Positions 33,969 through 37,242 of a stretch of 64,000 bases of DNA are shown piece by piece. The first letter of the stretch is position 1. Every line of letters begins with the position of its first letter. The notes beneath the pieces were generated by a model that worked only from the letters and a program-made list of their open reading frames with translations, did not search any database and was not told the origin of the DNA. This DNA comes from Gemmatimonadetes bacterium 2013_60CM_65_52 (GTDB taxonomy: Bacteria > Gemmatimonadota > Gemmatimonadetes > Gemmatimonadales > Gemmatimonadaceae). Made by a program: the position numbers and the translations under genes. The stretch covers positions 62,001 through 126,000 of the forward strand of contig NGFI01000014.1 in assembly GCA_002215645.1 (NCBI GenBank), in the 5' to 3' direction.

Positions 33969-35063
33969 CTACGGCTTCGACTTCGGCAGCAGGGCTTCGA
34001 TCGTATACGAGCTGCCCGGATTCCAGAGCAGCCAACTTGCCACGCCGTTGTCGTATCCGGCCTGTATCTGCGCACGAACCTGCTCGGGTCCGTACCTCGG
34101 CGTGCCAAGTGTAAAGTCCTGATACCAGGGGACGATGAGCGGCGGGTGCGCCAGTTTCGCGTTGCGCGCGAGCGCATCCTTCAGCGCGTGATCGATGACA
34201 CCGTTAGGCTCCGCATTGGGATTCGGAAATCCGTACATGCCCGTTGAATAGTGCGACGGATACGTCATGGGCTGCACGATGTCCGCCTGCGGCGCGAACT
34301 GTTCCCACGACTGGCCGATGCCCATGTCCGTCGTGTCCGACGTCGTGAGCCCGAAGACGTCGATGGCCATGGGTACCTGCATCGCCGACGTGCGTTTCTT
34401 GAGATATGCGAGCTGATCGCGGATGACGCGCGCTCGAGCGCGCCGCTTGGCAAGCGGAAAGGTCGCTTCACGGGCGAGCCGAGGGTCGTCGGGGAAGCGC
34501 ACGTAGTCGTATTGGACTTCACTGAATCCCATCGCCACTGCTTCGGCGGCGAGGTCCGCGGCGTACGTCCACACCTCGCGGTGTGTCGGATCGAGCCACG
34601 GCTGCTGATTGGCATCGAGCCACAGTTTGCCATCGGCCTTCCGCTTCACGGCCCATGAGTCACGCGCCCGCGCGAGAAGCGGGTCTTTCGCCACCACGAT
34701 GCGCGCGACGGCGTGAATGCCGTTGGCACGCATTGTGTCGAGCACCGCGCGGATGCGGGAAGCCGGCACCGGATTTGTCGTGTCCGCGCCGATGTCGCGA
34801 GCCAGAGGCACCTTGGAGCGATACAACACGTAACCGCGATCGTCCTTGACGTCGATGACGAGTGTGTTGACTTCCGTTGTCTCCGCCACCTGCACGAGAC
34901 GCCAGACGCGTTGATCGAGCACCGCCCAGCGATTCACGTAGAGACCGCGCACGGTGTCCGGACGCGGCAGGGGCGCATAGGTGCGTGCAGCGGGTTGTGC
35001 GTGTCCTGCCAACGACGCGAGCGCGATCAGCGTCGTGCACGAGAAGACTTGGAGGTGTTTCAC
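33969..35063 (-). CDS. Putative glycoside hydrolase, DUF4015 family
   Basis: A 364-residue protein with a signal peptide (VKHLQVFSCTTLIALASL, then AGHAQ). It continues with RGLYVNRWAVLDQRVW, LVIDVKDDRGYVLYRSKV, EAVAMGFSEVQYDYVRFPDD and VQPMTYPSHY, the signature set of DUF4015, a TIM-barrel family related to glycoside hydrolases. EVQYDYVRFP holds the likely catalytic carboxylate region. The GTG start at 35063 has AGGGA upstream. Probably acts on polysaccharide in the periplasm or outside. Confidence 0.85.
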   Translation of the reverse strand: MKHLQVFSCTTLIALASLAGHAQPAARTYAPLPRPDTVRGLYVNRWAVLDQRVWRLVQVAETTEVNTLVIDVKDDRGYVLYRSKVPLARDIGADTTNPVPASRIRAVLDTMRANGIHAVARIVVAKDPLLARARDSWAVKRKADGKLWLDANQQPWLDPTHREVWTYAADLAAEAVAMGFSEVQYDYVRFPDDPRLAREATFPLAKRRARARVIRDQLAYLKKRTSAMQVPMAIDVFGLTTSDTTDMGIGQSWEQFAPQADIVQPMTYPSHYSTGMYGFPNPNAEPNGVIDHALKDALARNAKLAHPPLIVPWYQDFTLGTPRYGPEQVRAQIQAGYDNGVASWLLWNPGSSYTIEALLPKSKP

Positions 35064-35111
35064 TCGTGATCCCTGCTGTATTCGCGGTTTCTGGAGTTCA
35101 CTGCTCCTTAC

Positions 35112-35183
35112 CACAGAGGTCACAGAGCTCACAGAGACGCACAACAACGGTCTTTGCCTTTCTCTGTGTCTCGCGTCCTCTGT
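35112..35183. repeat. Tandem CACAGAG nonamers with inverted counterpart
   Basis: Three copies in exact 9-nt register: CACAGAGGT, CACAGAGCT, CACAGAGAC (35112-35138). About 25 nt later come inverted forms TCTCTGTG (35161-35168) and CCTCTGT (35177-35183). The whole could fold into an imperfect stem of ~20 nt. It lies in the 250-bp gap between the glycosidase and kinase genes. This motif type recurs in intergenic DNA of Acidobacteria and Gemmatimonadota from my recollection; I could not check copy number here. Confidence 0.7.
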
Positions 35184-35271
35184 CTCAATTTCGCTGTTGT
35201 ACTGATTTAATGCGGTGTGGTTTCTGACTCCCCAGCCGCCTCGATGGGTCCATACCGGATACGCTCGTTTA

Positions 35272-35296
35272 CCGAGTGCCGAGTACCGGGTACTGG
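35272..35296. repeat. Tandem CCGAGTR heptamers
   Basis: The stretch CCGAGTG, CCGAGTA, CCGGGTA, followed by CTGG, forms three 7-nt units. It is in the same 250-bp gap, about 90 nt from the CACAGAG element and 17 nt from the kinase stop. Similar AGTGCCGAGT strings are common intergenic repeats in soil-bacterial genomes, so this is probably another mobile-like short repeat. Confidence 0.55.
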
Positions 35297-35313
35297 CCTT
35301 CACTACTGCCTTT

Positions 35314-37242
35314 TTAGAGCCGGCGTACCTCTCGCAGTGCATCGATCGCGTTGCCGATCTCGCGCGATACTGCTCGCGCCTCCTGCGTCGCGCTCGCCAC
35401 GTCGCCCATCGCGCTCTCGAGCCCGCTCGAGCGCAGCTTGAGCAGGTCAAGGCGCAGGTTCTGCAGCGCGAGGCCGGCGCTCTCGAGCTGCGACACGAGC
35501 GCGGCGCGCCGGCCGGACAACTCCGCGATGGACGTGCGCTGCCGCTCGAGCAGCGCGATCCGGCGCTCCTGTTCCGCGGACGGTGATCCTTTCGCTTCGA
35601 CACGAAGCGCCGCGATACGCGCCTCGAGCAGCTTGAGCGAAGAACCGCCCACGTCTGCATCGAGCCGGTGCAGCGTCGTCGCAAGCGCGCCCACGCGCTC
35701 CGCGAGGGCATCCACGGTCGGCGCGACGTCCGGAATCAGCGCACGCTCCGTTTCGGGCAGTCGTTCCAGCGTCTCCTTCACCGCGGTCAGATCGTTCGCC
35801 GCGCGACGCACGTGCTCGCCGTACTGGCCGTCGAGCACATCCTGTCCGGCCAGGCGATGCACCACCGCAGAAATGGACTGCCACGACGCCGCCGCGGGTA
35901 GCGCGCGCTCGCGTGGCGGAATCCGGATTCTGCTGAAGACCCTGGTGAGTGGCACGCCGTCGGCCCAGAGTCGCCCCACGCGACTCAGCACGCCGACGGT
36001 CATGAAGAAGGCGGGAAAGAGGAACCAGAAGAAGTGCGGCGACGTCGTCAGATTGATCGTTGCCAACGTGCCGATGGTGAGCACGCTGCCCACCGCGTTG
36101 CGGCGAAAGCGCACGATCCGCTCATCGGCCGACAGCGTTTCGTCATCGTGGTCGGCTCCGCGGCGCTGCGCGCGCTGCCACTCCTTTCGATCGCGCTTCC
36201 ACTGCCGCCACTCCGACTTGCTCCCCCATACCGGCGCGGGCGGCCAAACGGCCGCGGGGGGAGCCTGGAGCTGCCACGAGACCTGCGACGTGATGTGGTC
36301 CCGGAGTTGATCCGCATACGCGCTCAGCGGCGGCGCAATCGGCATTGGCGGCTGCTGTGGGAACGTCTGCGATCGCGGCAGCGGTGGCGGTGGTGACACG
36401 GGACCGGTCGCCAGCAGCGCCAGGCGAAACGCCGTGGCGTCCGTCCACCGCTCTTCGGGCTTTTTTGCGAGGGCGCGCGCGATCGCGTACGCCAGCGGCG
36501 GTGGTGTGTCCGGACGCAGCGTCGAGAGCGGCCGCGGCGTCTCCGAGACATGCTTCACGAGCATTGCGGGCGTATTCGACGCCTTGAACGGCGTCTCCCC
36601 CGCCAGCAATTGATATCCGATGACGCCGAGCGAATAGATGTCGCTCCGGCCGTCCACGTCGCGCTCGCCGAGGGCCTGCTCCGGTGACATGTACGCCGGC
36701 GTCCCGATGGCCACACCCGTGACGGTGAGCCGCGTGTCCCCCTGCGCGGCGCGTGCGATGCCGAAGTCCGTCACGAGCGGCCGGCCGCTCGTTCTGTCGA
36801 GCATGATGTTGTCCGGCTTCACGTCGCGATGCACGACGCCGTTCGAGTGCGCGTAGGCCAGCGCGTCGGCCACACCAGCGAGAATTGCCCGTGCATCCTC
36901 CACCGGGAGTCGCGGCTCGCGTGCGAGGCGTTGCGCGAGGCTCTCCCCGTCCACGTAGGCCATGACGAAGTACACGATGCCTTCGCGCTCGTCCACGGTG
37001 TAGATGGGGACGATGCTCGGATGCGCGAGCTGCGCGGCGGTCGACGCTTCGCGCAGGAACCGCTCGCGCACGTCGCCGTTGAAGGCGAGCTCCGGCGGCA
37101 GCACCTTGATGGCGACGCGCCGGTGCAGGCGCAGGTCAGTCGCGCGGTAAACGACGGCCATCCCGCCGCGGCCAATCTCGGTATCCACGAGATACTGCAG
37201 GCCGACCGCGCTGACGAGGCGGTCGAGCAGGTGATCCGTCAC
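35314..37242 (-). CDS. Membrane Ser/Thr protein kinase with coiled-coil tail
   Basis: A 642-residue protein. The kinase domain (residues ~17-275) has GRGGMAVVY, Lys46 in VAIKVLPP, HRDVKPDN, TDFGIAR and SPEQ, all intact. A Pro-rich linker (residues ~285-320) leads to two transmembrane helices near 395-430 and then a long helical region with ERRIALLERQRTSIAEL and ALQNLRLDLLKLRSSG near the end. The coiled coil probably mediates dimerisation. ATG 37242 overlaps the stop of the next kinase by 4 nt, so the two kinases are translated together and may phosphorylate each other. Confidence 0.93.
   Translation of the reverse strand: MTDHLLDRLVSAVGLQYLVDTEIGRGGMAVVYRATDLRLHRRVAIKVLPPELAFNGDVRERFLREASTAAQLAHPSIVPIYTVDEREGIVYFVMAYVDGESLAQRLAREPRLPVEDARAILAGVADALAYAHSNGVVHRDVKPDNIMLDRTSGRPLVTDFGIARAAQGDTRLTVTGVAIGTPAYMSPEQALGERDVDGRSDIYSLGVIGYQLLAGETPFKASNTPAMLVKHVSETPRPLSTLRPDTPPPLAYAIARALAKKPEERWTDATAFRLALLATGPVSPPPPLPRSQTFPQQPPMPIAPPLSAYADQLRDHITSQVSWQLQAPPAAVWPPAPVWGSKSEWRQWKRDRKEWQRAQRRGADHDDETLSADERIVRFRRNAVGSVLTIGTLATINLTTSPHFFWFLFPAFFMTVGVLSRVGRLWADGVPLTRVFSRIRIPPRERALPAAASWQSISAVVHRLAGQDVLDGQYGEHVRRAANDLTAVKETLERLPETERALIPDVAPTVDALAERVGALATTLHRLDADVGGSSLKLLEARIAALRVEAKGSPSAEQERRIALLERQRTSIAELSGRRAALVSQLESAGLALQNLRLDLLKLRSSGLESAMGDVASATQEARAVSREIGNAIDALREVRRL

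Follow-up and report, generated by a model that had tools for sequence, protein, structure and literature searches.

Dispersed CACAGAG hairpin elements of bacteria and archaea and their probable partnership with GxxExxY, a gene of the PD-(D/E)XK nuclease superfamily

In the excerpts available, REPINs are described as extragenic, hairpin-forming inverted doublets with a variable spacer that occur in many copies, and RAYT genes as single and divergent within each genome, with the repeats in the gene flanks and an uneven distribution showing signs of lateral transfer (PMC3116915). REP sequences carry a GTAG or CGTC tag at one end, according to a second source seen in part (PMC3733652). The CACAGAG elements reported here resemble REPINs in being extragenic, multicopy, hairpin-forming inverted doublets with a variable spacer, and the GxxExxY genes that accompany them resemble RAYT genes in being divergent, single-copy, flanked by repeats, and unevenly distributed. 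The two systems differ in that RAYT is an HUH/Y1 transposase whereas GxxExxY is a member of the PD-(D/E)XK nuclease superfamily, in that the CACAGAG arms are tandem nonamers whose same 27-nt pattern recurs in many phyla and in archaea, and in that the source genome has no Y1 gene match and its element ends have no GTAG/CGTC tag. The partner gene is a full member of the GxxExxY family (TIGR04256, PF13366), which is named only as a member of a nuclease superfamily. The elements are also like MITEs in being short, gene-less, and dispersed with inverted ends, but their interiors are not conserved in the source genome; some Bacteroides loops are common to several sites. A small nuclease gene inside its presumed target sequence recalls the homing endonucleases, except that in the present case tens of target-repeat copies without a gene are themselves scattered. 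A literature search, with most subscription papers and all preprints outside its scope, returned no description of these repeats or of a link between them and GxxExxY. In the papers that the search covered, GxxExxY occurred as mentions of the gene with no link to repeats found, and exact arm strings occurred in animal-gene and fish papers and in PMC3090145.

The locus lies within a 64-kb stretch of DNA that was analysed as a whole and is referred to as the window (Table 1). The first-pass annotation had described three 9-nt copies of CACAGAG in register and an inverted copy 25 nt further on, within a 250-bp gap, and the coordinates confirm this: CACAGAG is found on the + strand at 35112-35118, 35121-35127, and 35130-35136, in exact 9-nt register, and the inverted CTCTGTG at 35162-35168, 25 nt beyond the last of these units. 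Two more inverted units follow in worn form (CTCGCGT, 35170-35176, and CTCTGTC, 35178-35184). There were 2 matches to CACAGAGNNCACAGAG in the window, and 100 shuffles with 2 mismatches allowed gave a mean of 0.47, with 11 of them reaching 2. The repeat search of the window had no inverted pair in 35040-35320 among the repeats listed, and the folding of the stretch had z values of -2.4 (+ strand) and -2.8 (- strand). From window statistics alone, the case for the element is modest; it is the whole-genome counts given below that settle the reality of the repeat. What the window holds is one of these dispersed hairpin elements, worn and without a gene. The same gap holds a second dispersed repeat at 35253-35311 (TACCGGATACGCTCG...CCGGGTACTGGCCTTCACTACTG), of which the genome has four further copies with 85-95% similarity. 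It has an inverted partner about 100 bp away at two of the fetched loci (L416 and L418) and therefore looks like another hairpin family; no CACAGAG unit was found in the four fetched stretches of this repeat.

Table 1. Coordinates of the window element and its surroundings (position 1 is the first letter of the window)
Feature	Position	Strand	Remarks
Left arm	35110..35136	+	ACCACAGAG GT CACAGAG CT CACAGAG; three nonamer units
Loop	35137..35161	+	25 nt
Right inverted arm	35162..35184	-	CTCTGTG intact, units 2 and 3 worn; hairpin folds
Intergenic gap with the element	35064..35313	.	250 bp, between two - strand genes
Gene on one side of the gap	33969-35063	-	presumed GTG start placed at 35063
Gene on the other side of the gap	35314-37242	-	putatively kinase-like, judged from an HRDVKPDN stretch

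The source genome (4.2 Mb in 14 contigs, 97% complete) contained 64 + 60 = 124 exact matches to CACAGAGNNCACAGAG and 78 + 67 matches with one mismatch, compared with 0 + 0 and 0 + 1 for the reversed control. Thirty elements from 28 fetched stretches were read individually among the matches listed, and 29 of the 30 were intergenic, against a called coding fraction of 0.82. The motif is therefore neither confined to one copy nor equally frequent within genes, and the first-pass proposal of a dispersed, REP-like repeat holds, the elements being hairpin-forming inverted doublets in many intergenic copies. Their general plan is (CACAGAGNN)2-4, a variable loop, and an inverted arm. The arm reads AATKAAC-CACAGAG-NN-CACAGAG-NN-CACAGAG, with 2-4 tandem nonamers as a rule, each consisting of the heptamer CACAGAG and two free bases, and it is followed by a loop of 4 to about 80 nt and then by the inverted arm. 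The heptamers are constant and the spacer dinucleotides variable, and the end consensus on both sides is AATKAAC-C, with neither a GTAG nor a CGTC tag. Among 27 elements with clean arms, the spacers mirrored each other between the arms in 13 of 45 cases (0.29) versus a permuted mean of 0.125, a value reached by 3 of 5000 permutations. The loops of 27 elements, from which the window copy was left out, were mostly unrelated, with few common 9-mers and the longest of these in neighbouring duplicates. In this genome, neither the 6 nt flanking the arms on the outside nor the loop ends were more symmetrical than permuted pairs.

The exact motif was present in 45 of 395 genomes of the source phylum, and seven genomes drawn from the genus had 124, 111, 37, 17, 0, 0, and 0 exact matches. 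A wider scan with the three-unit arm ACCACAGAGNNCACAGAGNNCACAGAG (23 fixed bases) returned at least 115 stretches, and 80 of these came from about 15 phyla by record title, archaea included, in agreement with the earlier remark on similar strings in several soil phyla. The titles named Deltaproteobacteria, Myxococcales, Chloroflexi, Bacteroidetes, Planctomycetes, Acidobacteria, Aminicenantes, Ignavibacteriae, Verrucomicrobia (Opitutaceae and Spartobacteria), Chlamydiae, Omnitrophota, Cloacimonadota, Cyanobacteria, Nitrospira, Lentisphaerae, the Alpha-, Beta-, Gamma-, and Zetaproteobacteria, and archaea (Methanosarcinales, Methanothrix, and ANME-2). Most of the 80 were metagenome bins, but named strains were also present (Bacteroides finegoldii DSM 17565, Labilibaculum euxinus A4, Cuspidothrix issatschenkoi CHARLIE-1, and Alcanivorax sp. 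S6407), as they were among the other 35 (Bacteroides fragilis Q1F2, Alcanivorax jadensis T9, Lacipirellula limnantheis I41, and Amphritea atlantica DSM 18887). The 80 loci hold 103 arms, 93 of them with room for a partner search. An inverted partner lay within 600 bp on the expected side in 44 of these 93, at a median distance of 60, whereas only 4 of 83 had one on the wrong side. The arm order was reversed, with the inverted arm first, at three Chlamydiae loci (L132, L147, and L156). Frames running through the arms at four loci (L129, L139, L140, and L186) read HREHRD or TENTEITE tripeptide repeats, since a nonamer equals three codons, and such tails of predicted proteins are probably not real.

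Within the source phylum, four genomes (G299, G266, G286, and G007) had many CACAGAG pairs with no preceding CC, so that the arm ends vary between genomes; in G007 the arms begin with TTTCTCACAGAG, as judged from one copy. The degenerate pattern CCRCRRAGNNCRCRRAG requires CC before the heptamer and so undercounts genomes with other arm ends, such as G299, which has 274 CACAGAG pairs versus 11 matches to the pattern.

At two of the loci from other phyla (L140 and L186), the open frame between the inverted arms encodes a GxxExxY protein (TIGR04256; PF13366). The source genome has a single PF13366 match, at C10:506734-507078, and this gene lies between two full elements (C10:506523-506595 and 507158-507228). 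The profile scores exceeded the curated cut-offs, with 137.7 bits for the source-genome gene against PF13366 (cut-off, 22) and 157.4 bits for the L140 protein against TIGR04256 (cut-off, 35). The protein is a PD-(D/E)XK nuclease superfamily member of about 125 aa (TIGR04256/PF13366 PDDEXK_3), and residues D69, E79, K81, Q93, and Y97 (L140 numbering) are invariant in a four-row alignment and the same in the source-genome protein. We take the D...ExK residues to be catalytic, as in the PD-(D/E)XK superfamily. An AlphaFold model built from four sequences was poor (pLDDT, 69), and a fold search with this model gave no match, PD-(D/E)XK nucleases being absent among the matches listed. A sequence search against solved structures gave four RelE chains at E values of 0.18 or worse, which were taken as chance; a weak resemblance to Cas4 in PADLOC (best E value of 1.5e-4) was set aside, and the Cas4 and Hjc Pfam profiles scored below their cut-offs. 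No relative was found in viral contigs with one protein and the four-row alignment as queries, nor in 50,697 phage records, which argues against viral spread of GxxExxY. Plasmid records with GxxExxY numbered 8 of 72,556, and 4 of the 8 were opened. It was also observed that the GxxExxY units of a Sphingomonas locus (L256) and a Bacteroides locus (L255) are situated inside operon-like gene pairs (fabD-fabG and radA-FAD protein, respectively), in the sense orientation and close after the stop codon.

The gene and the repeats tended to occur in the same genomes. PF13366 was found in 134 of the 395 phylum genomes overall, in 31 of the 32 that had three or more CACAGAG matches versus 103 of 363 others (p 5e-15), and in 39 of 45 with at least one match. 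With at least 15 matches to CCRCRRAGNNCRCRRAG, the figures were 28 of 31 versus 106 of 364 (p 1.5e-11). Kinship was controlled only by a test within one family (f2), where PF13366 occurred in 6 of 8 versus 9 of 73 genomes (p 3.5e-4), and by the protein tree described below. In other phyla, 11 of 12 motif-bearing genomes had PF13366, these 12 having been picked by hand and two of them because the gene had already been seen there; the exception was Alcanivorax sp. S6407 (G401). Element-bearing genomes of the source phylum without PF13366 were G390 (18 matches, 81% complete), five genomes with 1-2 matches, and three identified by the degenerate motif (G057, G242, and G318), and in Bacteroides elements were present and PF13366 absent in G432, G433, and G418.

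The surroundings of the genes were compared with shifted windows. The 81 loci with a GxxExxY match gave 67 genes once repeats and fragments were dropped, and the best inverted repeat between the 250-bp flanks exceeded the 99% null value for 31 of these 67 versus 3 of 368 shifted windows. Strict tandem CRCRRA[GT] arms were present on both sides at 33 of 66 loci (the 67 less one repeat) versus 2 of 365 shifted windows, and on at least one side at 51 of 66 versus 28 of 365; about ten of the 15 loci without strict arms had related arms by eye (CACCGAG, CGCCGAG, CACGGAA, CGCCAAG, and others). Since this first set consisted mostly of the best-scoring matches, the frequency of arms in it does not represent the GxxExxY family as a whole. 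A second set of 18 loci had strict arms on both sides at 1 and on at least one side at 5, and the inverted-repeat score exceeded the 95% null value for 4 of 5 members of clade I (HMM score of at least 115) and 4 of 13 members of clade II (below 115), so that clade I has arms as a rule and clade II often lacks or has lost them. A protein tree was made from 64 sequences after removal of 2 short ones, and the 16 rows whose arm class was unclear were left uncounted. On this tree, the class, CRCRRAG or CRCRRAT, required 3 changes; shuffling gave a mean of 10.2, and none of 500 shuffles was as low. Near relatives favour such clustering. Five of the six GxxExxY copies of one genome (G297) were read, and each stood between its own arm variant, the proteins being 41-66% identical. 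No near-identical gene copies within a genome were found among 19 loci of five genomes, where the proteins were 38-68% identical.

Movement of the units was observed among 41 Bacteroides genomes. Arms and GxxExxY follow radA in five of them (G400, G420, G425, G429, and G416) and are absent after radA in the six others that were read (G432, G412, G423, G433, G450, and G427), with the flanks of the empty site in G432 being 93 and 91% identical. The radA arms of G425 are of the CACGGATT kind even though its protein belongs to clade I; the frame in G429 is cut short. PF13366 is present in 16 of the 41 genomes. The five with the gene at radA have 10-19 query matches each, dispersed arms included, and of the other 36 only G432 (14) and G433 (6), both now without the gene, have more than 4. 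For six sites of G400 that carry no gene, relatives provided 38 comparisons, of which 37 could be read. The same nonamer family was found in 3 of the 37, all in G420, and the gap was 29 bp or less in five (site B in G441 and G446, sites D and E in G445, and site F in G447). Many of the 37 contained different sequence, which on inspection by eye was often a tandem-arm hairpin from another family, as if such intergenic sites were recurrent targets. Orthologous Bacteroides sites (L378-L415) were seen by eye to carry hairpins that are unrelated between species (AATGGATAATGG, CGGTGAACTGTAAGCGG, ATAGTTGATAGTTG, and CACAGATTA). Loops could be compared in three orthologous pairs (site B, site D, and p1 of G432/G420), and one of them, site D, showed an inversion: the loop of G420 matches that of G400 in reverse complement (90/103 versus 56/118), with the flanks conserved (50/60 and 57/60). 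In G432 and G420, members of one loop family lie at multiple sites whose flanks are unrelated. Target-site duplications were not observed, the Bacteroides flanks being about 74-95% identical and so too distant for exact junctions. These data show that arm-loop-arm units move and invert; the enzyme behind the movement is not among the things that they show.

The partnership between GxxExxY and the repeats is well supported by position, co-occurrence, and clade agreement. We consider it rather likely that these REPIN-like hairpins are spread by the PD-(D/E)XK nuclease GxxExxY and not by a tyrosine transposase, and we infer the action of the enzyme, namely, its binding and cutting of the arms, as well as the way in which copies are made. 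The nuclease would recognise the tandem arms that belong to it, either in duplex form or extruded as a hairpin, and would cut there, after which repair or recombination could copy or flip the arm-loop-arm unit. The gene itself would stay single and divergent while gene-less hairpins multiply, as with RAYTs and REPINs.

The alternative that survives best, though we regard it as unlikely, is that GxxExxY is a homing-type parasite of pre-existing hairpins, its protein cutting at the arms and its gene being copied into them, and that the hairpins arose and spread by other means, such as replication slippage with template switching. The gene does lie inside or between arms, the arm families differ between species at one orthologous site with the architecture kept, and the spacer mirroring fits template switching. 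By itself, however, this explanation accounts neither for the near-constant presence of the gene in repeat-rich genomes nor for the way in which arm class follows protein clade.

It is less probable still that the hairpins are host elements under selection, acting as bidirectional terminators or as stabilisers of mRNA ends, and that GxxExxY genes simply inserted near them. By a crude gene caller, the gaps that hold the 29 intergenic elements were convergent for 13, tandem for 15, and divergent for 1, which suits such a role (the caller missed the gene beside the window element and labelled that gap convergent, the true context being tandem), and some Bacteroides loops contain terminator-like hairpins, by eye. 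Against a host function stand the very uneven counts within the genus, the absence of any terminator-like site found in 35000-35330, and the Rfam searches, which gave no match up to an E value of 1 in the window gap and none at threshold in eight fetched stretches.

That the hairpins are ordinary REP/REPIN elements moved by a RAYT appears very improbable, even though they share with REPINs the form of extragenic, hairpin-forming inverted doublets (PMC3116915, in the part seen). Y1_Tnp was found in 106 of the 395 phylum genomes and leans to those rich in repeats, occurring in 13 of 32 with at least 3 matches versus 93 of 363 others (p 0.09), in 18 of 45 with at least one match (p 0.048), in 14 of 31 rich in the degenerate motif (p 0.02), and in 18 of 39 rich by either measure (p 0.007). 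The association is far weaker than that of PF13366, and 19 of the 32 genomes with at least 3 matches have no Y1_Tnp. The source genome, at 97% completeness, gave no Y1_Tnp (RAYT) match, the control being positive in 5 of 14 known genomes; a RAYT is thus contradicted there unless it lies in the missing 3%, and the AATKAAC-C arm ends lack the tag in their consensus. The first-pass annotation raised the possibility of a family without a transposase. This stands insofar as no RAYT match was found in the genome, but a GxxExxY/PDDEXK_3 nuclease gene is enclosed or flanked by the arms, and the first reading of the repeat as a whole is partly supported.

Similarly remote is the suggestion that these are MITEs or invertible segments of a conventional transposase or tyrosine recombinase, with inversion due to that enzyme or to homologous recombination between arms: the long inverted ends and the loop inversion would agree with it, as would an arm-like PCR primer at the B. 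fragilis large-capsule promoter, where the authors ascribe inversion to Tsr19 in the part of the paper seen (PMC3090145), but the loops are mostly unrelated among 27 copies, no end duplication was seen (between distant relatives), and the gene found between the arms is GxxExxY.

Beyond the proposed spread of CACAGAG hairpins by GxxExxY, a broader proposal seems to us evenly poised, namely, that there is a domain-spanning class of selfish DNA in which each GxxExxY nuclease reads its own tandem-arm code and drives gene-less hairpins through intergenic DNA. The differing hairpins at the same sites (CACAGAG, CACGGATT, CGCGAAG, and perhaps others) would then form one superfamily, with the arm sequence as a readout of nuclease specificity. 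If this is true, a widespread and unexplained fraction of the intergenic DNA in bacteria and archaea would gain an owner, an uncharacterised nuclease family would gain a function, and REPIN-like spread would have arisen with a second, unrelated enzyme fold. The tracking of protein clade by arm sequence would provide a ready data set on how a nuclease reads DNA.
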